This document shows positions 9,526-32,254 of a DNA stretch of 59,339 nt, one piece after another. The first letter of the stretch is position 1. Every line of letters starts with the position of its first letter. Location of the stretch: positions 1 through 59,339 of the IMG/VR virus record IMGVR_UViG_3300028883_000010; one strand, 5' to 3'. This stretch comes from a virus. Below the pieces are notes generated by a model, which saw only the letters and a list, made by a program, of their open reading frames with translations, had not been told where the DNA came from and searched no databases. Made by a program: the position numbers and the translations under genes.

Positions 9526-12500
9526 ATGGGATACCCGAGCACTGACGACCTTTTCGCACAGGACCTGGAAACCATCAGCTCAGACTTTGCCCGCCTTACC
9601 GGGAAAACAGACAGCTCCCAGGAGGCCCGGCCCGCCGATTTGACGCCGGCCGAGGCCGCTGATCATCAATTTTTTTCCGAGACATCTTCAAAATACCGGC
9701 AGTTGACCGGCCAGGAGGGAGATCCCTTTGTTCCGGATAGCCAGAAATCCCGCGAACAGCTCGCCAAGGAAAATATGGAAACCCGGAGTGAATTCACGCG
9801 GAATTTGCTTTCCGGCATCGATGACACCCAGGGGCTACTTTATGGCGCCGCCGGCCTGGTGGGCAAGGCATTTCATTCTGACACGCTCAGGGACTGGGGC
9901 TTTGAAAATTACAAGCGCAACATAGAGGAGGCGTCCCTCAACCCGTCCACCTTCAACAGCGTTTCAGAAGTTGACTGGACATCTCCCGGGGATGTCGGTA
10001 CCTGGTTTGCCGGTGTCATTGGTAAGCTGACGCCGACCATGGCCGAGATTATGGCCGCGTCCACCATTGGCACGGTAATCGCTCCGGGCGCCGGGACCGT
10101 CACCGGTGCGTTCAGCCGCGGCATCATTAAAAAGGCCATGCGTAACAAGGTGGCCAAGGCCATGGAGTCCAAGGCCGTCCAGGCCGTAGCAGCTAAATCC
10201 GGAGAGGCCGCAGCCAGGAAGGCGGCCGAGCGCCTGGTAGCCAAAGAGGTCGGCGGTAATATCGGGCTGGTTCTGGGGTCCACGGCCCTGGAGGCCGGCG
10301 GCATGTGGGCGGAAGGCGCCGAGGAATTCGGCGTTGAAAACAGCAATGAGTGGACCGCCGCGGCCCTGGGTCTGCTTTCCGGTGCAACTGAGCTGGTGGC
10401 GCCGTCTGGTACGTTTGTCCGGCGCGCCTTGGGGCTCAAGGAGGTTACCCGGGGTATCACCAAAGAGACCGCTAAGAAGTTGGTCCAGCGGGCCGGCAGC
10501 GGACAATTCATCAAGGCGATGATCAAGGCTGTCCCAGGGACCATGGCCAAAGAGGGAACGCAAGAATTTGTTCAGGAATTTATTTCAACCCTGAATATGT
10601 TTGTTCAGGACCCGGAGGAAAAGCTCTTTTCCCCTGAAAACATCCATCGATACATCGATTCAGCGGCCGCCGGCGCCGCGGCCGGTGTCCTTTTTGGTCT
10701 GGGGGAAGGCTACTCCGGTCATAAATCCCGCCTCAATGAGGCCCGCGACATCCTGGCCCGCCGGCAAGCTGCCGCCGACGCAGAGGAAGACGCGGACATC
10801 GCCGCCGCCGAAGCCGCCGAGAATGGGCCGGCCGCCGGCAAGACTGACGACATCAACGCTCCGGCCAATCCCGAGGCCGCAGCGAACGAATTCACCGACG
10901 AGGAACTTGCAGCAGCGGCCGCGGCCCGGGCAGAAGGAAAGACGGCAGACGCCCGGGCCGCCATGGATCAGGCCAATGAGGTCATGCAGGCGAAACAGGC
11001 ACAGCTCGACAACCTGAGTCGGTTTAAAAATCCCTCCAAGAAACAGCAGGCGCTCATCAAAAAGCTGAAAAAAGAGCTGAACGCCAACTATGGCAGCCCG
11101 GATGCCATGATTATCAATTCCGCCGAAGAATCCGCCCGGGCCTATGAGGATCAGCTGTCAGAAAGTCAAAAGGTTGTCACCCGTCAGAAAACCAAAGATG
11201 CCATTGAGGCCATCATGCAGACGACGGGCAAGTCAGCGCAGCAGGCGGCCCAGGACATCAAAAACGGTGCGGAAATTCATTGGAACCGGATGGTCCGGAA
11301 GGGCGCTCCGGATGCCAAAAAGTTTCAGGAGGAACGCCCGGACCTGGTTTCCCTGATTGACGGCTTGAGGAATGCGCCATCCCGAGAGGCAGCCGAGGAG
11401 GCCATCAAGAATCACAAGCTCGACGAAATCCGGGACAACGTCGGCGGCCGGCTTACAGAGGCCAGCAGCGAGGCGTTGACCCAGGTGCGGCAGCAATACG
11501 AGCATGAGGGCCGGTCCGACCTGGTGGCAATGATTGATTCCGAGTTGAGCACCCGGAATATTGCCACGGCCCTTTCACCGAAAAACAATAAAGAACGGTT
11601 TGTCACTCTTGGCGGCGCCATCCGGGCCATGGGCGGCATCAACCCGGCGGGCTTAAAATCGGATTACCTGGCCCAGTACAAAGACGCCGGCAAGGCCAAG
11701 CTATTCAATAAGGGCGGAGTGGAGATCGAAAAAGCGCAGACGGGTCTTGTGCGGGCCGGCTGGATGCTGCCCAGTGAGGACCTGGCCGGCATTCTGACCC
11801 ACAACCCCGATGCACTGAAGCGCGGCAAGCTGGACGCAGAGCCCAAAACCAAAAACCAGAAGGCGGCCGCGGCCGAGATCGATGAGTCAACCAATGTAGA
11901 CGTTGAGGCGCCCCCGGATTACGACAAGGAAGGCGCCTATAAAAAAGAATTGGCTGGAGACCTGGCAGAAGGCACAGAGGCCACCATGGTCATTGATGGC
12001 CAGTGGGACAAATACAAGGTGGTCGAAAATGACCCCCTGGGCGATGGCGTAACCCTCCAGGACGGCAAACAGATTACCATTCCGGCCGGCAAAGAGGTTG
12101 AGATCCTGGTATCCGACATCAAGGGTATCGAGGCCACAGAGAACGAGCGCGACCAGGTTCACGACTATTCTTCCACCCAAGTTGATATACCGGGGCCGGC
12201 TGCCGACGAGATCCGGGAGCTTGGGCAGCTCATTCCGGATGAGGAGCTTTACACAGACCCCAAAGACCCCTCATACGGCCGCGAAGAAAAGCCGCATGTC
12301 ACGGTAAAATATGGCGTGCACTCGGCAGACCCGAAATCGATTGAATCCGCCCTGGCAGGCGTCGGGCCGTTCAAGGTCACCATGGGGAAGGTTTCCATCT
12401 TTGAAAGCGATGATTACGACGTCGTCAAAGTCGACGTTGAGAGCCCGGAACTGCGCGCCTTGAACAAAAAAATTGCCGAGAGCACCAGCGTTACCGATAC

Positions 12501-15500
12501 GTTTCCGGATTACCACCCGCATGCCACCATTGCCTATGTAAAAAAAGGCGAAGGTCAAAAGTACGTCGGTGAAAACAGCCTCGAAGGCAAAGAAATCACC
12601 ATGAACGCCCTGACCTTTTCCGGCAAGGACGGGAAAGAGTCGGTTTTCGATTTGACAGAGCGCCGGCGGGCAGCCGGAAAGCCGAAGGCTGGCGAACAAC
12701 GCTCCGGCAATGACCGGCGCCAGGATACCGAGTATCGCAAACGCATTGATGAGATGACCCACGATGAGGCCATTGCCGAGCTGAAAAAGGATTCCACCGG
12801 CCTGACGAACCTGTTGTCAAAGCGGGCCTATGAGGAAGATCAAAATAAAAAACCGATCCAAGTAATGTTTGACATGGACGGGCTCGGCTATATAAACGAT
12901 CATGTAGAGGGTGGGCATTCACTCGGAGACAAGGCCATTTCCCTGTTTGGAAGAGCCATTGAAAAAAGCTCACTGGGCAAGGACGGGGTTCATTTTTCCG
13001 GAGATGAGTTCGGCACCCAGGCCGTGAGCTTGGATGAGGTTGAAACGGCCAAGGCCGAAATACGGGCATTCCTGGAGGCCCGCCCGCTTGAAATCATCAT
13101 CGATGACGTAAAATACCATCACGTTTTACAATTCAGCACCGGGACAGGAGACACACTCAAAAATGCGGATAAAAACCTTATCGCCCGAAAAGGCGAAAAA
13201 GAACGAGAAGGCACCCGACCGGCCAAAGGTTCTGGACTCGCGGCAATTACGCGAATTGATAGAGGCCGGGGGGAAGGTGACGTCAGTCAAACTGGAGGGA
13301 GTGGAACTCCTGGAGAAACCGCCGAAGCAGAGCCCGGAAAAGAAGGAGTAGCGCCCGAACCGCCGGCGCCGGCAGATCCCCGGGAAAAATTTACCCAGGA
13401 CATTGAACGGACGGGCTTTGCGATTGACCCGAAGGGCCGGTCCTATAAAATTATGCAATCGGACGCCGGCGGATTCTATGTCCGGATAACGGAAGATGGT
13501 TTCCGCACCGACCTTGGCGGCGATCCCCGGGGTGGCGGCTGGACACTGGGAGAGGCCCAGGCCAAAGCCATTGACCGGGCTTTCCCCGCAAAACCCGCGA
13601 AACCCACCAAAAAAGAAAAGGCCCTGGCAGACTATAAGGCCTACGTCGATAGCCTCACCGATGAGCAGCGCGAGGCCGTCAAGGACCATACCCCAGAAGA
13701 ACCAGCATCGCCCGCCAGTCAGATTTTAAAAATAAAAAAGATGCTGGCAAATCTCAAGGCGCCCGAAAACGTTGAAAGCGCATGGGATAGCCAGACGCCA
13801 GAGTCCCGCGGAATGATTGCTGAAATGTTGGGTATGGTGGCGGCCGGGAGCCCCAGTTCACATTATACAGAAATTGCGTTCAAAAACCTGTCAGACATTG
13901 ACAAGGAGGTTATCACCAAGGCGAAAGACCAGTGGGAGGGCCGCACGTTCTCCAGAATCGCCATCGGTGACAATGTCCAACCGCGCAAGGGCAGCGAGGT
14001 CCCAAAGAGCATGGCCGGGGCCGTCACCCATATCAAGCGGGACTACAAAACCGGGCAGGAAAAAATAAAAACCGAAAATTCTGGGAACCTTTATTTTCAC
14101 AACTACGATCTTGAAAAGGTGAAACGGAAAAAGACGCCGGCTGAGATCGAGGCCGAGCTTGACGACTTTTTCAAAGACGAGCGGGTGCCCGTCGGGTCCG
14201 TCCGGAAAGCATGGGACCGCCTGCCGTATGACGCCCGGCTCAAGGCCATGGAGGCCATTAACGCCCCGTCTGGTATCCATGAATATGTTGCCAGCCGCGA
14301 ATGGGCGGACATCGGCCCGGAGACTCAACGGCGCCTTGCCCGGGACCGTGACAAGTGGATGCCGACCCAGGAGCCGGCCGGCATCAGCATCGATGACGAA
14401 AACGCCGAAAAGGTCGGCAAAGATTGGGATAAGGAACTGACAAAATATGGCCGCCGGCAGGTGGCCTTAAAAATGGGATGGAACAGCTCATCCGCTGAAA
14501 GGATTGCCAAGACCCTATGGCAGCATCTGACAGACGCCGCCAAAAAAGTTTTGATCCGCAGCCATGAAAAATGGGCACCCACCGTAAAGGATAAGACCCC
14601 GGACCATGGGAAACCCGGGGCCAGCGAAAAGCTCTCTTTCTTTATCGGCAAACAGATCGCCGAGGGGAAAACAACATCCTGGCAGGCGCTGTTTAAAGAA
14701 GCCGACAAGGCTTTCGGAGGCACTCAGGCCGCGGGGGCCTATACTCCCAAAGACGCCTATGACGCAATGGAACTGGCCGTCAACCGGTTTATCTCGAAAC
14801 GGCCGAACCTTTATTCGCCGGACACGATATTTGAAGTTGTCGACGCCCAGAAGACCATCACCCGGCTGCAAAACCTGATTTCCCTCCTGCCCACCCAGAC
14901 CAAACGCACCCGGGAAATGGATCAGTTCCAACAATTTTCTACGCCCCCGGGCCTGGCCTATGCTGCAGCATGGGCAGCCCGACCGACAGCAAAAGATACC
15001 GTCATGGAGCCGAGCGCCGGAGTCGGCGGCCTGGCCGTGTTCGGTAAAACTGCCGGTGCCAAAACGATTGTCAATGAACTGAGCCCCAGGCGGGCCGAGC
15101 TGCTCAAGCTGATGGGCTTTGACCGGGTGTTCACCGAGAACGGTGAGCAGCTCAACAACATTTTGCCGGCCGATGTCAAGCCGACCGTCGTCTTAATGAA
15201 TCCGCCGTTTTCCGCCACGGCCGGCCGTACCCAGAAAAACAACACCATGAACGGTGCCCGGCACATTGAGCAGGCCCTGGCCCGGCTGGCGCCTGGTGGC
15301 CGCCTGGTGGCCATTGTTGGCCGCGGCATGGCCGATGACCGGCCGTCCTTTAAAAAATGGTGGACCCGGATGAAAGCGAAATACAATGTCCGGGCAAATA
15401 TAGGGATTTCCGGAAAGGAATACGCAAAATATGGGACCACCTTTGATAATCAAATCTTAGTTATTGACAAAGACGGCCCCACCAATGGTAACATTGTAAC

Positions 15501-18500
15501 CGGGTTTGTGGAGAAATTCAAAGACTTACCCGCCAAACTATGGGAGGTCCGAAATGACAGACCTGCAATCGATCAGGAAGGCCAATCTTCATCCCCTCAA
15601 TCAGAAGATACTGACGTTACTACGCAAGGAGGGAATCCCCCCGCGGACGGATCGGGTCCAGGTCCTGAATCTGCTGGATTGGGCACTGGAAAAGGGCCTG
15701 ATAACGGAGGAAGAACCGGAGGTCTGGAGTCTGGCAACGAGTCTGCCAATAATGAATCTGGATCCAGCGGAACTGATGGAACGGTTAAATCCGGAAGAAA
15801 CGATGACAGCTCAAAGCATCGGCCGGATAAAGACCGCGGAGGAAATGGCCGAGGAGATAGCGTATCTCCTGGAATTAATGACAAAGAATTAAGCCTTGAC
15901 GAGCTTTCCGACCTGTTCGACGAAGTCGCCGCAGAGGAAGGCCTGATTGAAAAGCCGACCGAGGCCCCGGCGCCGCCGACCAGCAAAGGCAAACCCACCC
16001 TGAAAGGCGCCGCAACGCACGCCGGCAAAGGTGCCAAGAAAGGCCTTGAGGCCGTCGCCGACATCCTGAAAGGCCTGAACCAGACCGGCGCCATTGGCGA
16101 TAACCTGCCCCCTTTAATCCATCCCGAGGCCTACGCCCAGGCCAAAGAGCATCTTGCAGAGAGCTACAATGAATTTGTTGCCGCCGGCAACGAAATCAAG
16201 GAATGGATCCGTTATGCGCTCAAACGCCTTACGGAACTGGGCGCCCCTGTTGGTATGTCCAAAAACTGGATACTGAATTTTTATGCCAAGGACCGCCCGG
16301 CCCCGCCAGAAAAGCCCGCCGAAACCGGAGTTGAAAACGTCGAAAACAAAGCCGAGGGTAAACTGACAGATTCCTTGTATGAGGTTTACAGACCCCGGGC
16401 GGCCATCGCCGGCAGCCGGCAGCATCCGACGCCGCTGGTTGAAAGCGCGGCCATGGCTGCCACCCAGGCGCCGCCCATCAATTACAAGCTGAGTATTTCC
16501 AAGGTTGCGATCGAAGGCGATCCGGCGGACCCCTCCAAAGGCATAAGTGATATTCAGCTGGAAGCTATCGCTTACGCCGGCGCTGCCCATGAAAAAATCC
16601 TGCCGAGCGGTGAACGCAAAGGCTTTTTCATTGGCGACGGTACCGGGGTAGGCAAGGGCCGGCAGATTTCCGGCATCATCTGGGACAACTGGAACAAGGG
16701 CCGCAAAAAGGCGGTTTGGATTTCAGAAAAATGGAGTCTGCTGAAAGACGCCAACCGGGATCTGACAAACGTCGGATGGAAAGAAGGCCCGGACCTTTTA
16801 TTCAGTCAAAAAGATACTGATGTGGGCAACGCCATTAAAAAGAAAGAGGGTATTCTCTTTACGGCCTATTCGACCGCGAGGGGTGGGTTTGACAGAATCC
16901 GAGATGACATAAGCGAACACGATACAATCGCCGCCCGGCGCCAGGACAATGATATGTCCATCCGGATCAACCAGATTATCAAATGGTGCGGCAAAGACTT
17001 TGACGGGGTCATCGCCTTTGATGAATCCCATAATATGGCCAATGCCGCACCGACCAAGGGAACCCGCGGGACTAAGGCGGCATCAAAGCAGGCGCTCGCT
17101 GGTATCTACCTGCAAAAGAAGCTGCCCAAGGCTCGTGTTGTATATGTGTCGGCTACTGGCGCCACTGAGGTTGAAAACCTGGTTTATGCCCGGCGCCTTG
17201 GCCTTTGGGGTGCCGAGACCCCCTTCAGAAGCGCCAGGGATTTTGTTTCCAAGATTGCCGCCGGCGGGGTGGCAGCCATGGAAATGGTGGCCGGCAATAT
17301 GAAATCTCTCGGGCTCTACCTGGCTCGGTCCCTGACGTATGACGGGGTCAAGTATGACCGCATGACACACAAGCTCAGCGACGCCCAGGCCAAAAAATAT
17401 AATGAGCTGGCCCAGGCCTGGCAGATTGTTTTGCAAAACATCAACGAAGCCGTTGAGCTGACTGGATGCAGCAAGGGGCAAGCTGCCATGTCGCAATTTT
17501 GGGGCGCCCACCTGCGGTTTTTCAACCAGATCATCACAACCATGGAAATGCCGTCAGTTATCAAGGCGGTTAAAAAAGACCTGGCCGAGGGCCGCACGGC
17601 TGTTTTACAGCTGATCGACACCAATGAGGCCGCACAAAACAGGGCATTAGCGAGTCTGCAGCAAGGGCAAGAGCTTGAAGACCTGGACATTACCCCGCGG
17701 AATGACCTGATTGCCTATCTCGAAAACGGTTTCCCGGTCCAGGAATATGAAACCGTTACCGATGAACACGGCCACGAGGTAAAACAGCCGGTTGTCGATT
17801 CCGAGGGGAAACCGGTTTTGAATGCCGAAGCTGTTCAGATGCGGGATGATTTGATTCTCAGAATCATGTCCATCAAAATGCCGAACGGCCCGCTTGATTA
17901 CCTGCTGAATGAAATCGGCCACGAGAATGTGGCCGAGGTTACCGGGCGCAGCCGGCGCCTTGAGCCGGACCCGGAAACCGGCCGGTTGAAAATTGTCCGA
18001 AGGACCCCAAAACATTCAGAGGCAGAAACAGAGGAATTCGACGCCGGAAAGCGCCGGGTGCTGATTTTTTCCGAGGCTGGCGCCACTGGCCGCAGCTATC
18101 ACGCCGACCGGACCATTGAAAATCAGGAGTTGCGCCGGCACTATCTGGTTCAACCCGGCTGGCGGGCGGACAAGGCTGTCCAGGGACTCGGCCGGACGCA
18201 CCGTTCCAACCAGGCGCAGCCGCCCGAATTTACCTTATGCACTACCGACCTGAAAGCACAGGCCCGCTTTCTGTCATCGATCGCCCGGCGCCTTGATCAA
18301 CTTGGCGCGCTGACAAGGGGCCAGCGGCAGACCGGCAGCCAGGGCATATTCCAGGCCCGGGACAACCTTGAAAATGCATATGCCCGCGATGCTCTCAAAA
18401 CCCTTTTAGAGGATATTCATGCCGGGGATGTCCCGGGGATCACGGTTGACGACGTCCGCGAACAAATGGGGATTGACCTGGAAGCCGGAGACACGCTTCC

Positions 18501-21500
18501 CGACGTGGCGACCACTCAGTTTTTAAACCGCATGCTTTCCATGACGATCGACATGCAAAACTTGACGTTTGACGCCTTCACCAGCCGTATGGACCGAATC
18601 ATTCAGGCCCATTCCGACGCCGGCACGCTTGACGTCGGTATCGAAACAATCACCGGTACGAGCGTCCGGCAGATCGATAGCCAGGTTATCCGAACCGATG
18701 AAACCGGCGCCGAGACCAAATATGTTCAGCTTGACGTTGACAACCCGGCTGCCATCAATGACTTTGATTCCATAGCTGAAATGTTCGCCGGGCGCGGCGG
18801 GTTTGTCAGAAACCTGAAATCCGGGAAGGTTTGGCGGACGTCTCCTGAACGAGACCGCACCACCAGCACCGGCGAAGTGGTCGGCTATCGAATGCTAATT
18901 TCACCTGGCAACACTCATCAGCGAATTGATGTTAACAAGCTAACGCCGGATAAATATGAACCTTTGTCAAAGGTCGAGGCACAGGCTTACTGGGAGGCCG
19001 AATATGAGGCCCTCCCGAAGGTCACGACCGACAAATATCACATCATCACTGGCGCAATCCTGCCTATCTGGGACCGTCTGGGCGGCAAGGCCACGATTTA
19101 CCGATTCCAGACGGACGATGGCAGCCGCTTTCTTGGACGCGCGATTCCGCAAGCCCAGTTGCAAGCCACCATGAGGAGCCTTGACATCGAGGCCGGCAAG
19201 GTGAAATATACCGGCAAACAAGTTGTTGACGCTGCATTGACCCAGGGTACCAAGTTTTCTTTGGAACACAGGTGGTTTATTGAGCCGGTCATGGTTTCCG
19301 GTGACCAGCGCATTGAATTGAAAGGCCCTGATTATGATGACCTGGACTGGATGGACCGCCTTGGTATCATTAACGAGCGGATCGGCTGGCAAGCCCGATA
19401 CTTTGTGCCGACCGACAAGCGTGCAGCCGGCATCATAGATGATGTCATCAATCGCCATCCGGTCATTGCCATTGAAAGCGGCAAGCGGGGCGGCGCCAAT
19501 ATGCGCCTGGATTCGGATACGACTTTTTCCAGGCCGAGCCCGTCGGAGACCGACACCACAAACAAAAGGATAGATGAATATGGCGGGAGGCCGATTTCAA
19601 AAGAAACAAGCCCGTCGCAGCCGGGCAAAGTCACTGAGAATTCAAAAAAGCTCCATGAGACCATCGCCAAGCTGTTTGATCATCTGCCGAAAAACACCTT
19701 CACAGAAGTTGCCGCCGATGACGTCGGCGACCCCTCTACTTCATTTGCTCGAAGACTTGCCGACATCTACGGCAAAAAAATAAGCTTTTTCCATAACGCC
19801 CACCCGGAAACATTCCGCTTTGACGGGGTCTCAACCGGTCCACTCAAAGGGACCGTTTTTGTCAACGCGGATTCCAAAAAGCCTCATCTGGTTATCGCCG
19901 GCCATGAATTTGTGCATGAAATGCGCCGGGATCAGCCGGAGCTGTATCGAGAATTTGCCCGGACCATGGAGGGCATGCTCAAAAACTTCACCGATTTCAA
20001 AGCCTATTTTGACAGCCTCACAACCCGGGACGGCACCGGCAAGCTTTCAGACGACCGGATTTTCGAGGAGCTGCTCGCTGACTTTGTCGGTGAACAGATG
20101 ATGACTAAAAAATTTTGGCGAGATTTCAGCCAGGGGAAACCGTCCCTGTTTGAAAAAATCGCCACCATGTTCATGAATTTCCTGGATAAGGTCCTATCCC
20201 AAATAAAGGTAAGCAAGGGGTCTGAGCAATATTTCAACGACCTGGAGCGGGCCAGAAAGGCCGCTGCCGGCGCCATGTCCGAATATGCCACCCGGCAGGC
20301 CGCCGGCCAGGGCCGGAACAAGACGGCGCTTTCGAACGAAATTGCCGACGTGTGGCATTCGCAAATGGAGGGGGCCCTAGCGCAGAAGCTGCCCGGCAAA
20401 GGCTCGCCGGCACAATTCAAACAGATGATCCAGGCATGGGCCAAAAAGGGCCAGATCAAAGCCGAGGAGCTTGAATGGTCCGGGCTTCTGGACTGGCTGG
20501 ATAATGGCCTCTACGAGAAGCGGCTTGACGATTTAACCGGGGAATTGACAGTCCGGCAGTTTAACGAAAAAGGTGATAATCATTGGCAGGCCCAGGCCAA
20601 GAAGGCTGCCCAGAAAGTAAGCAAGACCGAGGTCATGGACTTTTTGAAATCCAACCGGCTGCAGGTGAAAGAGATCAACCGCGGCGGCCCCGATCCATAT
20701 ACAAGGACGGCCCAGGATTGGCGCCGATACCTGGTCGATGAAATGTATGTGCGCGAAGCCGAAGCCGAAGACATGACCGACCAAGAAATTTATGGTTTCG
20801 TTGGCGAGGAAATCAGCGCCGGAACAATCCACAATACCCGATATGAAAACTATCAAGAGCCCGGCGGGAGAAATTATCGTGAGCTGTTGATCACCTTGCC
20901 GCCCAAAACCCCGGCCGCTGTTACGGCATATCATAAGGCCTTGCAGGATATGGCCAAGAAATACGGTGCCGATTATTTGGAGCTGGCGAGTTTCGGCCAC
21001 GCGCGCGAAAACTTGTTTAAACGGATGCCGACGCTGGAGGTTGCAGATTTTCGTGAAATAGAAGCCGCCTATTTAAAAGCCCGCAACGAATTTGAAGGGG
21101 ACAACTATCAATCTGGGCATTGGTCCGAAAAGAATGTTCTATCCCACGTCAGATTCAACGAAAGAACCGACGCGGACGGGGCGCGGGTGCTGTTTCTTGA
21201 AGAAATTCAATCGGATTGGCATCAGGCGGGGCGGAAGGAAGGGTATGCCAAGGACATAACAGGGTGGAGTGCCGTTCGTACGGGCCGGAAAAATGAAAGG
21301 GGTCGTGCGGAGTGGACCGTCAAAAATCCGGATGGAGATGTCCAAGGCACTGTTTTTGCTATTCGCGAACAAGGCGCGATTAGGAGAGTGGCAAAAGCCC
21401 CGGTTAACGCTCCCCCAGACGCCCCCTGGAAAAAGACCTGGCCGATAAAAACCTTTCAGCGCATGGTGCGGTACGCGGCGGAGAACGGGTTTGATAAAAT

Positions 21501-24500
21501 CGCCTGGACACCCGGGGAGGTTCAGGCCGCCCGGTACGACCTGAGCAAGCATATCAAGGAAATCAATTACGAACAGGATACCGACGGGTCCGACAATTAC
21601 GACCTCCAGGCGATAGGCCATGACGGTAAAGAGGCCTTTTCCGAGGAAGACATCACCATCGCCCGTATCGAAGAACTGGTCGGAAAAGAAATTGCCCAGA
21701 AAATCCAGTCCGGTGAAGGCCGCGACGATTCGAGCGAGTACCGGAGTTGGCGTTCTCTTTCTGGTCTTGATCTGAAAGTCGGCGGCGAAGGCATGAGGGA
21801 ATTCTATGACAAGATCCTACCCGCCGAGGTCAATAAATTCTTTGGTAAGAAAGCTTGGGGCAAGGCCCGGGTGGGGACGACCGAGGTCATAATCCCCAAA
21901 GCGCCGAAACTCCCGCCAACGCATAAACCATACCCCCTTGAGGTGTGGTCTCTACCCATAACCCCCGAAATGAGAGCTATGGCCCTGTTCGAGGGTATGC
22001 CGACCTTTGCCGGGGTGCCTAAGAAATCGGTAAAGGCCTATAAGCTGTTCCGGACCCTGAAAAGCAAGCCCGGTGAGCTATTCCCCCTCTTTATCGGTAA
22101 AACAAAGCCCGTCGCGGTAGGCAAATGGGTTGACGGGGAGTTCATCCCCACCAAAGGCTTTGCACAGCGCCCGGGATGGCACGCCGGCGCTCTGCCGATC
22201 GCTCCGCATTTGCGGCAGAAGGCAACCGGCAAAATTGCGCCTGATCGGGTATGGGCGGAAGTCGAAATGCCAGCGGACAAAGATTGGCAGCAGACAGCCG
22301 ACCAGAGCCCGACCCGGGACATCCGGGACCAAATCCCCGAAGATGGCCATTATCGATTCAAAACCAGCAAGCTGCAGGGCGGCGCCTGGATGATCGGCGG
22401 CGGAGTCAAGGTCAATCGGATCTTAACCGACTCCGAAGTTGCACAGGTGCTGCGCGAGGCTGGATTCGCAGACGACGAGATCACAAACGAACTGCATGAC
22501 CCGAAATCCTTAGACGAGGCCCCGACTTTTTCCCGCCCAGGCCCCCAGAAGGTTTCAGACGTGCTGCCCGCGGAAGTTGCCAGGCGCATGGCCGCGGCCA
22601 AGGGTGTTGACAAGACCCGGTTCATGGACCGTCTGAAAGCTGCCGGCCGCAAGATCAAAGAGGAGGCCGCCCACTTCCCGGGGCTCACCCGGATAGAGGA
22701 CGTCAATCAGCGGGCCGTTTACAAGGAGATCCTGCGGCAGCATCAGGAAATACCGAGCAAGGCCCAGGACGCGGCCGCCCGGGCCATCAAGGGCTTTCTG
22801 GCAGACCTGACGCCCGAGGAATACGATATGTATTCACTCCGGATCATTCTTGGCGACGAAATGCGGTGCATTGAAGACGGGCAGCGCACAGAAAAGAACC
22901 TGCCATTTGGATTCAAATCGTTTGCCGAGCTTGGCAATAGTTTTGATGGCCTGAACAGCATCATCAACCATAACCCCAGGGTAAAAAAGGCCCTGGCCAA
23001 ACGGAAGGCTTTTCAACGCGATTTGGCACAGAGCCTGGTTGACATGCAGGTCTTGAAACCGGAAATTCTCAAATCGGACGAATATTTCCACCACCAGGTA
23101 CTTGAGTACTGGAATGCAAAGGAGGCGGAATTCAAAGGCATCGGTGTTTCGTCCAGTGACGCCCGGTCTCACTGGCGGCCCTGGATGGCCAGCCGGAAGG
23201 ACAGCGCCAAGGATTACAACACGGAATATGCAGAGGCCGAGCTGATGACAGTGGCCCAGATGATTGGCCAGGTTGAAACGGCAAAGAGCCTGCGGCGTCT
23301 ACGGCAGGAATCCGACATTCTCGGCGACCTGAATTCGATTGCCAAACAGAATAACCATCAAGCCGTCTGGGATGCGTTCCAGTTCAACCCGGCGACGTCA
23401 GACCCCAAAGACGATCCATTTTTACCCTACCGGCAGGCCATCGCCATGGGCATTCAAAACCTGGTGAAGATGGCCGGCAAGGAACAACTTGAATATGACA
23501 GCGAGTTTCAGGACGTTGTTGACGATCTGATGGACCAATACTATGCCGGCAAGGATGAGGAATACGATTACCCTGGCAAGATCATGGACTCCGGCCGTTT
23601 CTTTCATTTTCTGAGTCACCAAATCAATGCCAAGCTCAACGGGTCCGGGCACGCGGCCACCATCTTCAAGGGCATCAAAAGCCGCGAACAGTTTACCAAG
23701 GATGTTTTGGGAGACGCCTTCCAGACCGGTCTGGACATCATCCCCGAGGGATACACCCGCTGGCAGCCGGACAAAAACAAGGGCTGGTTCTGGACAAACT
23801 CCATTGCCGACAACGTCCTTGAAAAAGTTGTGTCCGGTGAAAAATCCCTGGAGGATAAAGACGTTCGTAAGGTCCTGGCCAAGGGCCGGAGCGTTTACTG
23901 GGTAGTGCCCGAGGGCCTGGCCGATACCATGGACAATTTCCGGCCGGTCCAAAAGGAAGGCATGTTCGGAAACATGCTGACGAACACCATGCAGGCATGG
24001 AAACAGTACATCCTGATGAACCCCCTGTCGGTGGTCAAATACAACGTCAACAATATGTCCGGCGACATGGACGCGGTCCTTGCCTGCGATCCTCAGATAA
24101 TGAAGTACGCCAAAAAGGCGCTTTCCGACCTGCGGCCATGGATGAAGCACGATCCGGCAGCCAGCCGGGCCCTAGACGAAGCCCGGGACCTTGGCGTCAT
24201 TGGCAGCGGGTTTTCCGTCCAGGAGGTTGAAGACACCCTCAAGGTTCTCGGGACCGATCGACTTTTGAATGACGTCTTTCTCGGAAAAAGCCCGGGGCTC
24301 ACTCAGAAATATTGGACAAGCGTCAAAACTTTGACGACCCTGCGGGAGAACATGCTTCGGCTGGCCGCCTTCCGGTATTTTCAGGATGCCATCAAAAATC
24401 GGGAGCGCGGGACCCTGAAAAATTACGGGGCCTCGAATCCCAAAGAGGTTGACGCCCTCATCAGAAACGGCATGACCAAGGATGCCGCCGCCAAGCTGGC

Positions 24501-25569
24501 CCGGGAACTTCTGGGGGACTACGGCGCCATTTCCCGGCATGGCGAATATCTCAGATCCCATATGATCCCCTTTTATAGCTGGCTGGAAATCAACACTCCT
24601 CGCTATGTCTATATGATGCGGAATCTGAAATACAATTCCGGCGAGGTCACCGGCGGCAAGGCCCGGATTGCCGGGACCCTGGCCAAACGGGGCAGCGTGT
24701 TTGCGCTCAAAGCGGGCATGCTGTTTGCGGCCGTGAGCCTTTATAACGCCGTCGTCTGGCCGGAGGAGGAGGAGGAACTCGGGGAGGCCGGCCGCCGGCA
24801 GCTGCATATTATTCTTGGTCGGCGGGCGGACGGATCCATTATCACCCTTCGGTTTCAGGGGGCCTTGTCAGATGCGCTTTCCTGGTTCGGCGCCGAGGAT
24901 TTTCCGAATGACGTTCGAGAGGTCACCCAGGGCAAGGCTTCCATAGGCGACAAACTCAAAGAGGCGTCAAAGGCCGTTGCAAACAAGGGCCTGCAGGGAT
25001 TCCGGCCGGATGTGAAAATCTTATTTGAAAGCCTCACCGGGAAAAAGCTTTATCCGAATGCGTTTTCCCCGCGGCCGGTCCGGGATAAAGTCGAAAACAT
25101 CCTATCAACGGTCAAGCTGAACCTGCCCTATCAGTGGGCGATGGGCAGACCGCACCGGGGCTCCAGTGTCCCGGAACAGCTGGCCAACGATTTGACGAGT
25201 ATCCTGCTTTACACGACCGAGCCAGGGGTACAGGCTTATTACGATGCCCGCCGGATGGTATTTGACTGGCAGGATAAAAAGGGCATTGAAAAGAACTATG
25301 GGCAGCCGACCAGCAAGGGAAACGCCCTGTACTACTACAAACAGGCCATGAAATATGGCGACCTGCGGGCGGCCAAAAAATACCTGAAAGAATATCAGAA
25401 GCTCGGCGGCACAAAGACCGGCCTGAAACAGTCTATCCGGATGATGCACCCGCTTTCCGGAATCAAACAGACACAGCGGGCCGCATTTGTCCGCGGGCTG
25501 TCGGCAAAAGAGCGGGCCACAGTGGAACGCGGTATCACCTGGTACCGAAAAACATACATGAAGAATTAA
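9526..25569 (+). CDS. Giant polyvalent virion protein (2H phosphoesterase, GGDEF, DNA methyltransferase, strawberry-notch helicase, zincin)
   Basis: One open frame of 5,347 codons with AGGAG before the ATG. Domains, by residue: Ala/Gly-rich hydrophobic stretches (about 100-400); a 2H phosphoesterase with paired HVT (about 923) and HAT (about 999); a GGDEF domain with SGDEF (about 1158); an N6-adenine methyltransferase with EPSAGVGG (about 1827) and NPPF (about 1892); a Gly/Ser/Asp-rich linker (about 2010-2122); a strawberry-notch SF2 helicase with Walker A GDGTGVGKG (about 2371), DESH (about 2499) and GLGRTHRSNQ (about 2888); a zincin HEFVH (about 3460); then polyvalent-protein domains around EEIQSDWHQ (about 3900) and RPGWHAG (about 4216); and a C-terminal region with a membrane-like segment near 5060. 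Methyltransferase plus this helicase is the combination in P1 DarB, which is injected to block restriction. Injection here is inferred. Two +1-frame nested genes lie inside. Confidence 0.9.
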   Translation: MGYPSTDDLFAQDLETISSDFARLTGKTDSSQEARPADLTPAEAADHQFFSETSSKYRQLTGQEGDPFVPDSQKSREQLAKENMETRSEFTRNLLSGIDDTQGLLYGAAGLVGKAFHSDTLRDWGFENYKRNIEEASLNPSTFNSVSEVDWTSPGDVGTWFAGVIGKLTPTMAEIMAASTIGTVIAPGAGTVTGAFSRGIIKKAMRNKVAKAMESKAVQAVAAKSGEAAARKAAERLVAKEVGGNIGLVLGSTALEAGGMWAEGAEEFGVENSNEWTAAALGLLSGATELVAPSGTFVRRALGLKEVTRGITKETAKKLVQRAGSGQFIKAMIKAVPGTMAKEGTQEFVQEFISTLNMFVQDPEEKLFSPENIHRYIDSAAAGAAAGVLFGLGEGYSGHKSRLNEARDILARRQAAADAEEDADIAAAEAAENGPAAGKTDDINAPANPEAAANEFTDEELAAAAAARAEGKTADARAAMDQANEVMQAKQAQLDNLSRFKNPSKKQQALIKKLKKELNANYGSPDAMIINSAEESARAYEDQLSESQKVVTRQKTKDAIEAIMQTTGKSAQQAAQDIKNGAEIHWNRMVRKGAPDAKKFQEERPDLVSLIDGLRNAPSREAAEEAIKNHKLDEIRDNVGGRLTEASSEALTQVRQQYEHEGRSDLVAMIDSELSTRNIATALSPKNNKERFVTLGGAIRAMGGINPAGLKSDYLAQYKDAGKAKLFNKGGVEIEKAQTGLVRAGWMLPSEDLAGILTHNPDALKRGKLDAEPKTKNQKAAAAEIDESTNVDVEAPPDYDKEGAYKKELAGDLAEGTEATMVIDGQWDKYKVVENDPLGDGVTLQDGKQITIPAGKEVEILVSDIKGIEATENERDQVHDYSSTQVDIPGPAADEIRELGQLIPDEELYTDPKDPSYGREEKPHVTVKYGVHSADPKSIESALAGVGPFKVTMGKVSIFESDDYDVVKVDVESPELRALNKKIAESTSVTDTFPDYHPHATIAYVKKGEGQKYVGENSLEGKEITMNALTFSGKDGKESVFDLTERRRAAGKPKAGEQRSGNDRRQDTEYRKRIDEMTHDEAIAELKKDSTGLTNLLSKRAYEEDQNKKPIQVMFDMDGLGYINDHVEGGHSLGDKAISLFGRAIEKSSLGKDGVHFSGDEFGTQAVSLDEVETAKAEIRAFLEARPLEIIIDDVKYHHVLQFSTGTGDTLKNADKNLIARKGEKEREGTRPAKGSGLAAITRIDRGRGEGDVSQTGGSGTPGETAEAEPGKEGVAPEPPAPADPREKFTQDIERTGFAIDPKGRSYKIMQSDAGGFYVRITEDGFRTDLGGDPRGGGWTLGEAQAKAIDRAFPAKPAKPTKKEKALADYKAYVDSLTDEQREAVKDHTPEEPASPASQILKIKKMLANLKAPENVESAWDSQTPESRGMIAEMLGMVAAGSPSSHYTEIAFKNLSDIDKEVITKAKDQWEGRTFSRIAIGDNVQPRKGSEVPKSMAGAVTHIKRDYKTGQEKIKTENSGNLYFHNYDLEKVKRKKTPAEIEAELDDFFKDERVPVGSVRKAWDRLPYDARLKAMEAINAPSGIHEYVASREWADIGPETQRRLARDRDKWMPTQEPAGISIDDENAEKVGKDWDKELTKYGRRQVALKMGWNSSSAERIAKTLWQHLTDAAKKVLIRSHEKWAPTVKDKTPDHGKPGASEKLSFFIGKQIAEGKTTSWQALFKEADKAFGGTQAAGAYTPKDAYDAMELAVNRFISKRPNLYSPDTIFEVVDAQKTITRLQNLISLLPTQTKRTREMDQFQQFSTPPGLAYAAAWAARPTAKDTVMEPSAGVGGLAVFGKTAGAKTIVNELSPRRAELLKLMGFDRVFTENGEQLNNILPADVKPTVVLMNPPFSATAGRTQKNNTMNGARHIEQALARLAPGGRLVAIVGRGMADDRPSFKKWWTRMKAKYNVRANIGISGKEYAKYGTTFDNQILVIDKDGPTNGNIVTGFVEKFKDLPAKLWEVRNDRPAIDQEGQSSSPQSEDTDVTTQGGNPPADGSGPGPESAGLGTGKGPDNGGRTGGLESGNESANNESGSSGTDGTVKSGRNDDSSKHRPDKDRGGNGRGDSVSPGINDKELSLDELSDLFDEVAAEEGLIEKPTEAPAPPTSKGKPTLKGAATHAGKGAKKGLEAVADILKGLNQTGAIGDNLPPLIHPEAYAQAKEHLAESYNEFVAAGNEIKEWIRYALKRLTELGAPVGMSKNWILNFYAKDRPAPPEKPAETGVENVENKAEGKLTDSLYEVYRPRAAIAGSRQHPTPLVESAAMAATQAPPINYKLSISKVAIEGDPADPSKGISDIQLEAIAYAGAAHEKILPSGERKGFFIGDGTGVGKGRQISGIIWDNWNKGRKKAVWISEKWSLLKDANRDLTNVGWKEGPDLLFSQKDTDVGNAIKKKEGILFTAYSTARGGFDRIRDDISEHDTIAARRQDNDMSIRINQIIKWCGKDFDGVIAFDESHNMANAAPTKGTRGTKAASKQALAGIYLQKKLPKARVVYVSATGATEVENLVYARRLGLWGAETPFRSARDFVSKIAAGGVAAMEMVAGNMKSLGLYLARSLTYDGVKYDRMTHKLSDAQAKKYNELAQAWQIVLQNINEAVELTGCSKGQAAMSQFWGAHLRFFNQIITTMEMPSVIKAVKKDLAEGRTAVLQLIDTNEAAQNRALASLQQGQELEDLDITPRNDLIAYLENGFPVQEYETVTDEHGHEVKQPVVDSEGKPVLNAEAVQMRDDLILRIMSIKMPNGPLDYLLNEIGHENVAEVTGRSRRLEPDPETGRLKIVRRTPKHSEAETEEFDAGKRRVLIFSEAGATGRSYHADRTIENQELRRHYLVQPGWRADKAVQGLGRTHRSNQAQPPEFTLCTTDLKAQARFLSSIARRLDQLGALTRGQRQTGSQGIFQARDNLENAYARDALKTLLEDIHAGDVPGITVDDVREQMGIDLEAGDTLPDVATTQFLNRMLSMTIDMQNLTFDAFTSRMDRIIQAHSDAGTLDVGIETITGTSVRQIDSQVIRTDETGAETKYVQLDVDNPAAINDFDSIAEMFAGRGGFVRNLKSGKVWRTSPERDRTTSTGEVVGYRMLISPGNTHQRIDVNKLTPDKYEPLSKVEAQAYWEAEYEALPKVTTDKYHIITGAILPIWDRLGGKATIYRFQTDDGSRFLGRAIPQAQLQATMRSLDIEAGKVKYTGKQVVDAALTQGTKFSLEHRWFIEPVMVSGDQRIELKGPDYDDLDWMDRLGIINERIGWQARYFVPTDKRAAGIIDDVINRHPVIAIESGKRGGANMRLDSDTTFSRPSPSETDTTNKRIDEYGGRPISKETSPSQPGKVTENSKKLHETIAKLFDHLPKNTFTEVAADDVGDPSTSFARRLADIYGKKISFFHNAHPETFRFDGVSTGPLKGTVFVNADSKKPHLVIAGHEFVHEMRRDQPELYREFARTMEGMLKNFTDFKAYFDSLTTRDGTGKLSDDRIFEELLADFVGEQMMTKKFWRDFSQGKPSLFEKIATMFMNFLDKVLSQIKVSKGSEQYFNDLERARKAAAGAMSEYATRQAAGQGRNKTALSNEIADVWHSQMEGALAQKLPGKGSPAQFKQMIQAWAKKGQIKAEELEWSGLLDWLDNGLYEKRLDDLTGELTVRQFNEKGDNHWQAQAKKAAQKVSKTEVMDFLKSNRLQVKEINRGGPDPYTRTAQDWRRYLVDEMYVREAEAEDMTDQEIYGFVGEEISAGTIHNTRYENYQEPGGRNYRELLITLPPKTPAAVTAYHKALQDMAKKYGADYLELASFGHARENLFKRMPTLEVADFREIEAAYLKARNEFEGDNYQSGHWSEKNVLSHVRFNERTDADGARVLFLEEIQSDWHQAGRKEGYAKDITGWSAVRTGRKNERGRAEWTVKNPDGDVQGTVFAIREQGAIRRVAKAPVNAPPDAPWKKTWPIKTFQRMVRYAAENGFDKIAWTPGEVQAARYDLSKHIKEINYEQDTDGSDNYDLQAIGHDGKEAFSEEDITIARIEELVGKEIAQKIQSGEGRDDSSEYRSWRSLSGLDLKVGGEGMREFYDKILPAEVNKFFGKKAWGKARVGTTEVIIPKAPKLPPTHKPYPLEVWSLPITPEMRAMALFEGMPTFAGVPKKSVKAYKLFRTLKSKPGELFPLFIGKTKPVAVGKWVDGEFIPTKGFAQRPGWHAGALPIAPHLRQKATGKIAPDRVWAEVEMPADKDWQQTADQSPTRDIRDQIPEDGHYRFKTSKLQGGAWMIGGGVKVNRILTDSEVAQVLREAGFADDEITNELHDPKSLDEAPTFSRPGPQKVSDVLPAEVARRMAAAKGVDKTRFMDRLKAAGRKIKEEAAHFPGLTRIEDVNQRAVYKEILRQHQEIPSKAQDAAARAIKGFLADLTPEEYDMYSLRIILGDEMRCIEDGQRTEKNLPFGFKSFAELGNSFDGLNSIINHNPRVKKALAKRKAFQRDLAQSLVDMQVLKPEILKSDEYFHHQVLEYWNAKEAEFKGIGVSSSDARSHWRPWMASRKDSAKDYNTEYAEAELMTVAQMIGQVETAKSLRRLRQESDILGDLNSIAKQNNHQAVWDAFQFNPATSDPKDDPFLPYRQAIAMGIQNLVKMAGKEQLEYDSEFQDVVDDLMDQYYAGKDEEYDYPGKIMDSGRFFHFLSHQINAKLNGSGHAATIFKGIKSREQFTKDVLGDAFQTGLDIIPEGYTRWQPDKNKGWFWTNSIADNVLEKVVSGEKSLEDKDVRKVLAKGRSVYWVVPEGLADTMDNFRPVQKEGMFGNMLTNTMQAWKQYILMNPLSVVKYNVNNMSGDMDAVLACDPQIMKYAKKALSDLRPWMKHDPAASRALDEARDLGVIGSGFSVQEVEDTLKVLGTDRLLNDVFLGKSPGLTQKYWTSVKTLTTLRENMLRLAAFRYFQDAIKNRERGTLKNYGASNPKEVDALIRNGMTKDAAAKLARELLGDYGAISRHGEYLRSHMIPFYSWLEINTPRYVYMMRNLKYNSGEVTGGKARIAGTLAKRGSVFALKAGMLFAAVSLYNAVVWPEEEEELGEAGRRQLHIILGRRADGSIITLRFQGALSDALSWFGAEDFPNDVREVTQGKASIGDKLKEASKAVANKGLQGFRPDVKILFESLTGKKLYPNAFSPRPVRDKVENILSTVKLNLPYQWAMGRPHRGSSVPEQLANDLTSILLYTTEPGVQAYYDARRMVFDWQDKKGIEKNYGQPTSKGNALYYYKQAMKYGDLRAAKKYLKEYQKLGGTKTGLKQSIRMMHPLSGIKQTQRAAFVRGLSAKERATVERGITWYRKTYMKN
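13163..13351 (+). CDS. Nested small gene, +1 frame inside the polyvalent gene
   Basis: A 62-codon frame with its own ATG and an AGGAG 12 bases upstream (13146-13150), ending in TAG at 13349-13351. Its product is basic with a credible amphipathic core (VLDSRQLRELIEAGGKV, then VTSVKLEGVELLEKP). The main frame over the same bases is low-complexity (Gly, Thr, Glu, Pro) linker just after the GGDEF domain. Complex protein in the alternative frame and linker in the main frame is the usual look of overprinting. It may be chance, since GC-rich genes often have long shadow frames. No family is recognised. Confidence 0.4.
   Translation: MRIKTLSPEKAKKNEKAPDRPKVLDSRQLRELIEAGGKVTSVKLEGVELLEKPPKQSPEKKE
15554..15892 (+). 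CDS. Nested gene, +1 frame inside the polyvalent gene
   Basis: A 112-residue frame with ATG at 15554, a GGGAGGT ribosome site at 15542-15548 and a TAA stop. The product reads like a folded helical protein (LNQKILTLLRKEGIP, VLNLLDWALEKGLITEEE, MAEEIAYLLELMTKN) with acidic and hydrophobic periodicity. The main frame here (about residues 2010-2122) is almost pure Gly/Ser/Asp/Asn/Pro linker between the methyltransferase and helicase modules. It uses the same +1 frame as the 13163 nested gene. I judge it a real overprinted gene or the relic of a separate gene kept when two neighbours fused. Function unknown. Confidence 0.55.
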   Translation: MTDLQSIRKANLHPLNQKILTLLRKEGIPPRTDRVQVLNLLDWALEKGLITEEEPEVWSLATSLPIMNLDPAELMERLNPEETMTAQSIGRIKTAEEMAEEIAYLLELMTKN

Positions 25570-29642: not shown

Positions 29643-30161
29643 CTAATTGAGGCCTGGCGTTTTTATTTTACCGGCTTGCCAGTTTTCTATAAAATCTATC
29701 AACTGCCATCCGGTGATAATCCTTAGCGGCCTTTTCCCATATTTCGTGTTTACAATTCTTTTTACAATGAACCCAATTTCTCCGCTATCCATCCATTTTT
29801 TTATCTGATTTTCGCTGACATTAAGGACTCCAGATGCTTCGGGTATGGTATATGTGACGTTAAATTGTACTATGCGCTCAACAAGTCTCTGCTTGCTTTC
29901 TTGGGCCTTTGTTTTTTCTTTTAAAACCCTTTTTGGGGTGGGGCGCATTAGGTTATGTTTTGGCTTTTCTGAATAGATTGCTTCGCGCTCAGCTTCCAAG
30001 GCTTCTTTTCTTGTCTCGAAACTCTCTATTTCGACCCTATTAATTTGATTAAACCAGTGCGCATGCTGTTTGTGTTGCGCTAATCTGTTCAATGCGTTTA
30101 AAGAAACGCCGACATAAAGCAAATTATTGTCTTTATCAAAATGGCGGTAAAGATTTTGCAT
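29643..30161 (-). CDS. GIY-YIG nuclease fused to a helix-turn-helix domain
   Basis: A 172-residue protein. Residues 1-75 show a GIY-YIG nuclease pattern: YRHFDKDNNLLYVGVSLNALNRLAQH, then a conserved-type Glu in AEREAIYSEKPKHN. Residues about 105-165 form a second domain (YTIPEASGVLNVSENQIKKWMDSG) like an excisionase or MerR helix-turn-helix. The fusion suggests a site-directed nuclease or homing-type enzyme. It lies one base upstream of the excisionase-like gene. Confidence 0.7.
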   Translation of the reverse strand: MQNLYRHFDKDNNLLYVGVSLNALNRLAQHKQHAHWFNQINRVEIESFETRKEALEAEREAIYSEKPKHNLMRPTPKRVLKEKTKAQESKQRLVERIVQFNVTYTIPEASGVLNVSENQIKKWMDSGEIGFIVKRIVNTKYGKRPLRIITGWQLIDFIENWQAGKIKTPGLN

Positions 30162-31031: not shown

Positions 31032-31190
31032 TTAATCGCCTAATCCGTGTTCTCGCCTGTAAAACATTTCGATGGTTCGACGGACCTTCCAAGAAAGCCC
31101 ATCGTATTTGGAATGTCCCATCCGTTTGGCCCATCGGCGGTAACATCTGCCATCGTGCGGGGGCTGCCACTTTCCGGTTTTGTTGGTCAT
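31032..31190 (-). CDS. Small basic hypothetical protein
   Basis: A 52-residue basic protein (MTNKTGKWQPPHDGRCYRRW start). I use ATG 31190, which overlaps the TGA of the upstream gene by four bases, rather than a longer frame from 31232. It may bind nucleic acid, judging by charge only. Confidence 0.55.
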   Translation of the reverse strand: MTNKTGKWQPPHDGRCYRRWAKRMGHSKYDGLSWKVRRTIEMFYRREHGLGD

Positions 31191-31474
31191 TTGCCTGCCC
31201 TCTTGTCGGTTGCCATCCACGCCTCTTCCCATTTATGCAAGGCCTCTAAGATTTTCTCCACAGCTTCCGGTAGTTGCGGGACAACAATTTCACGAATGGT
31301 CATTTTTTCATACATAATCGATGCAAGAACAGCGGCATCCCTTATTTCTGATGGTGTAAAACGACACATTCGTATGTGTGCATGCATCATGTCCACCAAG
31401 GCCCTAAAATCGTTGTCACGGTTGTACCGTTTTTCTGGTGTATTTGGATAATCGTATTGTATTTGTGGCTCCAA
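31187..31474 (-). CDS. Hypothetical early protein, TTG start
   Basis: A 95-residue helical protein. The start codon is TTG at 31474, supported by AGGAGG five bases upstream. Contains FRALVDMMHAHIRM and TIREIVVPQLPEAVEKILEAL. No family is recognised. It overlaps the next gene by four bases. Confidence 0.6.
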   Translation of the reverse strand: MEPQIQYDYPNTPEKRYNRDNDFRALVDMMHAHIRMCRFTPSEIRDAAVLASIMYEKMTIREIVVPQLPEAVEKILEALHKWEEAWMATDKRAGK

Positions 31475-31488
31475 AGGGGCCTCCTTTC

Positions 31489-31785
31489 CTATTCAAACAG
31501 CTGCCGCTGTTTCGGATCCTTTGACGGATGACGCTTGCCGGCGTGCATTTTTGCGTCGTATTTCAGATGACAAGGGGCACACATCGCGGCCAGGTTTTCC
31601 GTCCGGCAATCTGCCTCTATATGGTTACAATGCGCGACTGTGAGCGTATTTTTGTGGGTATCGAAGGCCTCCCCGGGCCGCCTGCATTGTTTACCTCAGC
31701 ACTCACACTGCCAATCGGCTTCAATTTTGACGGCCAAGGTGATTTCTGGCCATTCATCCGGGTATTTGCTCCAGTCTACCGGCAT
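31489..31785 (-). CDS. HNH endonuclease with in-frame UGA at a zinc-ligand cysteine position
   Basis: Ninety-nine codons from ATG 31785 to TAG 31489, interrupted only by TGA at 31696-31698 (codon 30). Before it: MPVDWSKYPDEW to DWQCEC; after it, in the same frame: GKQCRRPGEAF, LTVAH, NH, ENLAAM, CAPCH, KYDAK. This is the small phage HNH nuclease family, which as I recall it reads CExCG.xCRRPGE here, so the UGA stands exactly where the second Cys of the first CxxC zinc knuckle is expected. No other stop or frameshift occurs. Readings are selenocysteine, stop-codon readthrough, or a single nonsense mutation (Cys TGC/TGT to TGA). Its start overlaps the upstream gene by ten bases. Confidence 0.7.
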
Positions 31786-32027
31786 GATTTTGCCAGCTCC
31801 TTTTCAAGCTTATCCAGGCGGCCCCGCATTACGTCTATGTATCCCTGGAGCGTTTCAACGCCTTCGGGCAGGCCGATAGGTAAAACAATGAATTGGCACA
31901 CAACGGGGCTGTTTGAAAAATCAGTGCGCGTCATTGCGACAGCATGGTCCGTCTCCAGATCCAAGGAATGCACGCCACCCATTCCCCTTGTTACTACGCT
32001 TCCTATTATGGTTATTTTTTTTGGCAT
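31776..32027 (-). CDS. Hypothetical early protein
   Basis: An 83-residue protein starting MPKKITIIGS. ATG 32027 is chosen because GAGGGAG sits just upstream. The C-terminal half is a helix (VETLQGYIDVMRGRLDKLEKELAKS); the N-terminal half is beta-like. Its end overlaps the HNH gene start, so the two are coupled. No family is recognised. Confidence 0.6.
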   Translation of the reverse strand: MPKKITIIGSVVTRGMGGVHSLDLETDHAVAMTRTDFSNSPVVCQFIVLPIGLPEGVETLQGYIDVMRGRLDKLEKELAKSCR

Positions 32028-32038
32028 TACGCACTCCC

Positions 32039-32254
32039 TCAATCAATCTGTTTCCGGGCAAGGATTACAGCCTCACGAAAGGGGTTCGGCTGCCGTTCCA
32101 GTCGTGGAAGCAGCTGATTTAATGCGATCCACCGGCCGGCCTGGTGACCGAACTCAGAAAACCTGTAATCGGCCAGTGCGGCCCAGGCCTTCCGGGCGGC
32201 TTTGGCCATTTTGTCGGTGATCAATCCGGCGGTGTCGTTCAGTCTGTCATCCAT
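32039..32254 (-). CDS. Hypothetical early protein
   Basis: A 71-residue protein with ARKAWAALADYRFSEFGHQAGRW and LERQPNPFREAVILARKQID segments, helical and mildly basic. TGAGGGG precedes the ATG. No family is recognised. Confidence 0.55.
   Translation of the reverse strand: MDDRLNDTAGLITDKMAKAARKAWAALADYRFSEFGHQAGRWIALNQLLPRLERQPNPFREAVILARKQID

Follow-up and report, generated by a model that had tools for sequence, protein, structure and literature searches.

An in-frame TGA at a zinc-ligand codon of a phage HNH endonuclease gene, probably a fresh nonsense mutation

Background

When a phage nuclease gene is open from end to end but for one TGA, and that TGA stands where a zinc-binding cysteine is expected, is the codon read as selenocysteine (Sec), is it read through in some other way, or is the gene freshly broken? 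An original prediction raised these three options for a small HNH nuclease gene of a temperate tailed phage, whose virus record of 59,339 bp is referred to here, as a whole, as the window. In the literature that we searched, no paper came up that deals with both selenocysteine and HNH endonucleases.

Results

The window contains recognisable integrase, repressor, anti-repressor, RecT-like, SbcC-like, terminase, portal and major head proteins, and the HNH gene sits in the leftward early block of the phage. An AGGAG motif precedes its start, its first 10 nt are shared with the end of the upstream ORF, and a co-directional downstream ORF begins 14 nt past the gene. The features of the locus are as follows.

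31489..31785, minus strand: HNH endonuclease gene, 98 codons and a TAG, with one TGA (translation, phrog_1571, match of the model to PDB 5h0m)
31696..31698, minus strand: in-frame TGA, codon 30, where the first CxxC zinc knuckle has its second Cys (homologue alignment, GVE2 HNHE Cys79)
31577..31634, minus strand: H52 to C69, spanning the HNH catalytic core and the second CxxC, conserved and still in frame past the TGA (alignment)
31666..31679, minus strand: weak GGCC/CGGGGA/GGCC hairpin, not distinguishable from chance (folding comparisons)
31776..32042, minus strand: preceding (upstream) ORF in this operon, 88 aa, without a family match (ORF list, profile search)
31187..31474, minus strand: following (downstream) ORF in this operon, 95 aa, starting with TTG, without a family match (ORF list, profile search)

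A second small endonuclease gene (phrog_3312; 29643-30161, minus strand) adjoins the integrase in the same early block. Elsewhere in the window, 9526-25569 is a single open frame for a giant phage protein of 5,347 aa, which has a 2'-5' RNA ligase / Acb1-like (anti-CBASS) domain (E 8e-12; against the Acb1 model itself E 8e-6, just below that model's cut-off) as well as a helicase of the Strawberry-notch type (AAA_34, E 7e-106; Helicase_C_4, E 8e-69). Positions 91-4074 encode a protein of 1,327 aa in which DUF2341 and two stretches of Laminin_G_3 (concanavalin A-like) were recognised; it is probably tail-associated or involved in host recognition.

The minus strand from 31785 to 31489 translates into 98 codons followed by a TAG stop at 31491-31489. 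The translation is MPVDWSKYPDEWPEITLAVKIEADWQCEC, then the internal TGA, then GKQCRRPGEAFDTHKNTLTVAHCNHIEADCRTENLAAMCAPCHLKYDAKMHAGKRHPSKDPKQRQLFE; it starts with M, reads WQCEC directly before the TGA and GKQCRRPGE directly after it, and ends in LFE. The TGA at 31696-31698 (codon 30) is the sole internal stop, which confirms the predicted single frame, uninterrupted except at this codon. When Cys is assumed at the TGA, residues 1-92 of the protein match phrog_1571 (HNH endonuclease) with an E value of 2e-18, bearing out the predicted nuclease identity. This family comprises short free-standing HNH proteins, with relatives in Mycobacterium and Gordonia phages and in cyanobacterial plasmids. 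The window's protein resembles it both in the full-length match (1-92) and in the order of its motifs (CxxC, H52, N64, CxxCH). The alignment shows H52, N64, C69, C72 and H73 all present and in frame after the TGA, with C72-H73 directly following the H52-C69 stretch. Unlike the phrog_1571 homologues, which have TGC or TGT, the window has TGA at the second zinc ligand, leaving the gene without a complete four-Cys zinc site in sense codons. Judged by its sequence, it is a disrupted rather than an active member of phrog_1571.

An AlphaFold model of the protein, built from an alignment of 59 sequences, reached a mean pLDDT of 87.8. Its best match among solved structures was the zinc-bound HNH nuclease of Geobacillus virus E2 (GVE2; 5h0m), with probability 1.00, a Foldseek E value of 0.017 and a TM score of about 0.55. 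The zinc ligands of the GVE2 HNH endonuclease are Cys76, 79, 114 and 117 (PMC5304195), and these align with codons 27, 30, 69 and 72 of the window's gene in an alignment that is itself weak (E 0.6). The TGA therefore stands on a zinc-ligand codon, opposite Cys79, as had been proposed from the knuckle motif. The likeness to 5h0m consists of the fold and the four aligned zinc-ligand positions; in contrast, identity is only 19%, and 5h0m has Cys where the window has TGA. Phage HNH genes of the GVE2 kind are described as adjoining the terminase (PMC5304195), whereas the window's gene lies about 16 kb from it.

We then asked what relatives carry at codon 30. A first, single-protein search of viral contigs used patterns that were too specific and found no relatives, and neither did a pattern in viral contigs with TGA fixed; the looser pattern allowing any TGN at codon 30 then retrieved the family, with 71 stretches, most of them true HNH homologues. 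Together with further scans and annotated records, about 110 distinct HNH genes were read, the closest about 65-73% identical to the window's over the whole protein. Residue 30 is Cys in 100 of 100 aligned homologues, as the original prediction expected, and every homologue read that covers codon 30 has either TGC or TGT there; two close relatives carry WQCEC followed by TGC (L068) or TGT (L053). The window's TGA is one base change from the Cys codon of its relatives. Further TGA cases had also been expected at this codon, but none was found in viral contigs or among the roughly 110 genes, with patterns that permitted TGA and in collections that may omit records very near the window's own. A second scan of viral contigs, with TGA fixed and the flanks relaxed, returned no family member. 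Six TGA hits (L018, L021, L079, L204, L205 and L206) were rejected as unrelated frames, and the records of terminase and metallo-hydrolase relatives held no HNH copy.

An invariant cysteine is the classical place for Sec, so the position of this TGA, with the frame intact after it, is what would be seen if the host's SelB inserted Sec at the UGA as a structural zinc ligand of the nuclease. Against this reading, Sec mostly replaces redox-active Cys, whereas Cys30 is structural. The absence of any other family member with TGA at codon 30 also counts against it. Surveys of selenoproteins in metagenomes have required at least two TGA members for each candidate, and sequences with a lone TGA were left without a verdict (PMC2398784); in the viral contigs and loci read here, codon 30 has no second, independent TGA member. 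The position is also one that mutation would hit readily. The gene has 8 Cys codons, codon 30 included, and among its 42 stop-creating single changes 12 create TGA, 8 of them at Cys codons, in a count that ignores mutation bias. TGA opposite Cys is therefore the commonest form of TGA nonsense in this gene and, alone, is weak evidence for selenocysteine.

The hairpin was weighed next. It lies at 31679-31666 as GGCC-CGGGGA-GGCC, starting 16 nt past the TGA with its loop at 20 nt. Bacterial SECIS (bSECIS) limits are a loop of 3-9 nt with G in the first two positions, a stem of at least 4 bp, a spacing of 16-37 nt and an energy of at most -7.5 kcal/mol (PMC13188914). With a spacing of 20, the loop CGGGGA and its G, a 4-bp stem and -7.5 kcal/mol, the window's hairpin is formally at the limit. 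In loop, spacing and loop G, as in having TGA opposite a conserved Cys, the gene is like bacterial selenoproteins with Cys homologues and a bSECIS element. However, -7.5 kcal/mol was also reached in 24 of the 77 Cys homologues scored by the same procedure, and among 2,000 synonymous recodings of the region 36% equalled or bettered the window's hairpin. Positive controls lay far lower, at -14.2 (E. coli fdhF) and -11.7 kcal/mol (E. coli fdnG), and at -13.2 and -17.7 kcal/mol for two formate dehydrogenases from the metagenome-assembled genome (MAG) of the closest relative. Over the 60-nt region, 187 of 200 shuffles folded more stably (z +1.28), and an Rfam search gave no match. Since Cys homologues and synonymous recodings match the hairpin and the controls are far stronger, it is uninformative on recoding, either way. 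The place, spacing and loop described in the original prediction stand; their meaning as a SECIS is not supported. With a hairpin no better than those of the Cys homologues and recodings, a structural, non-redox position and no second TGA member, the gene is unlike bacterial selenoproteins.

L084, at 73% the nearest relative, is part of a Deltaproteobacteria MAG that has SelA and TGA-bearing formate dehydrogenases. SelA scored above cut-off in 136 of 148 genomes of that MAG's phylum, which may not be the phylum of the window's host. The common occurrence of Sec machinery there favours the selenocysteine reading, and by analogy the host of the window's phage could be Sec-competent. The L084 phage differs from that of the window, sharing only two further proteins at 36-39%, and when the terminase was used to look for the host, 395 genomes from one phylum yielded remote matches only. 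The original prediction had named a host without selenocysteine machinery together with relatives without TGA as what would refute it; the second part is what was found, no relative read carrying the TGA.

Other decoding of UGA was considered as well, namely near-cognate leaky readthrough or a host suppressor tRNA (e.g. a Cys tRNA), either of which would yield some full-length protein. Genome-wide reassignment of UGA was rejected: TGA ends 15 of 38 selected ORFs in the window, the integrase and terminase among them. No tRNA genes were found in the window, which counts against such decoding. The open frame past the TGA, which exceeds chance in that the whole HNH domain continues with all conserved residues, would fit such decoding.

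Broken copies of the gene were observed elsewhere in the family. One relative at 62% identity (L110:5001-5300) has a lone in-frame TGA at codon 60, the remaining frame being open; 66 of 100 homologues have Cys there and the rest Val, Ile, Met or others, and the position is outside the four zinc ligands. Another, L214 (minus strand, start at 5477), is interrupted by a single in-frame TGA where the family has its conserved Gly38; its cysteines are all intact. The L172 copy is frameshifted, and in the isolate Mycobacterium prophage prophiGD05-2 (L002:1001-1301) a frameshift splits the gene; this homologue is annotated only as a short hypothetical protein. From these lone TGAs and frameshifts, sporadic nonsense and frameshift is, at the level of sequence, normal in the family; it affects a few per cent of the genes and also strikes codons other than Cys.

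These copies bear on each alternative. All three single-nonsense members (window, L110 and L214) have TGA, never TAA or TAG, which favours some decoding of UGA. Against it, other ORFs in the L110 and L214 loci end in TGA as an ordinary stop, as in the window, and the three sites would need different residues (Cys, Cys and Gly). We regard such decoding as very unlikely. The TGA at a glycine in the sister gene also argues against selenocysteine, which we hold to be highly improbable for this codon: the hairpin is uninformative, no relative shares the TGA, and sister TGAs fall at other codons. Finally, the TGA might be a sequencing or assembly-consensus error, the phage really having a Cys codon. 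One base would suffice, the remainder of the gene is undamaged, and the source is an IMG/VR virus contig, judged from its assembled sequence. Single-base substitution errors are, however, rare in covered consensus, and real stops and frameshifts occur elsewhere in the family, one of them in an isolate prophage; we consider an error improbable.

Residues 31-82 score at the family median in the alignment of homologues. No decay was found in them: they break no 90%-conserved position and contain one rare residue only. The TGA is therefore recent or polymorphic, or read through, or a consensus error, and recency is the simplest reading because recoding has no support beyond the position of the TGA. 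Translation restart past the TGA was rejected, since the first ATG is in another frame and the in-frame ATG that comes next, at codon 68, lies beyond most of the catalytic core.

Discussion

A real, fresh nonsense mutation at codon 30 probably explains the TGA, and among the three options originally offered it is the best supported. Two points weigh against it. The part after the TGA has a median score for the family and a single rare residue, as recoding would likewise predict, and the TGA falls on an invariant Cys with a hairpin formally within bSECIS limits. We infer that the phage truly has this base, not a consensus error, and that translation actually terminates there.

Under a fresh nonsense mutation, the temperate tailed phage would carry, in its leftward early operon, a gene for a free-standing nuclease of the HNH (beta-beta-alpha-metal) type that has two CxxC zinc knuckles, and one base change would have turned the second zinc-ligand Cys codon into TGA in this copy of the genome. 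Translation stopping at the TGA would leave a 29-residue peptide without the catalytic core, and the nuclease would be off. Given that no decay is seen downstream, this loss would be recent or polymorphic. The gene would be dispensable, as it appears to be for the family members with frameshifts or stops.

If the codon were recoded after all, the phage would have a selenoprotein with Sec as a structural zinc ligand. The locus also carries a caution, as in a Cys-rich gene most TGA-creating point mutations arise at Cys codons. On the favoured reading of a fresh mutation, the phage has a common type of HNH nuclease gene in a copy with a nonsense codon, which would show that such small nucleases are readily lost.
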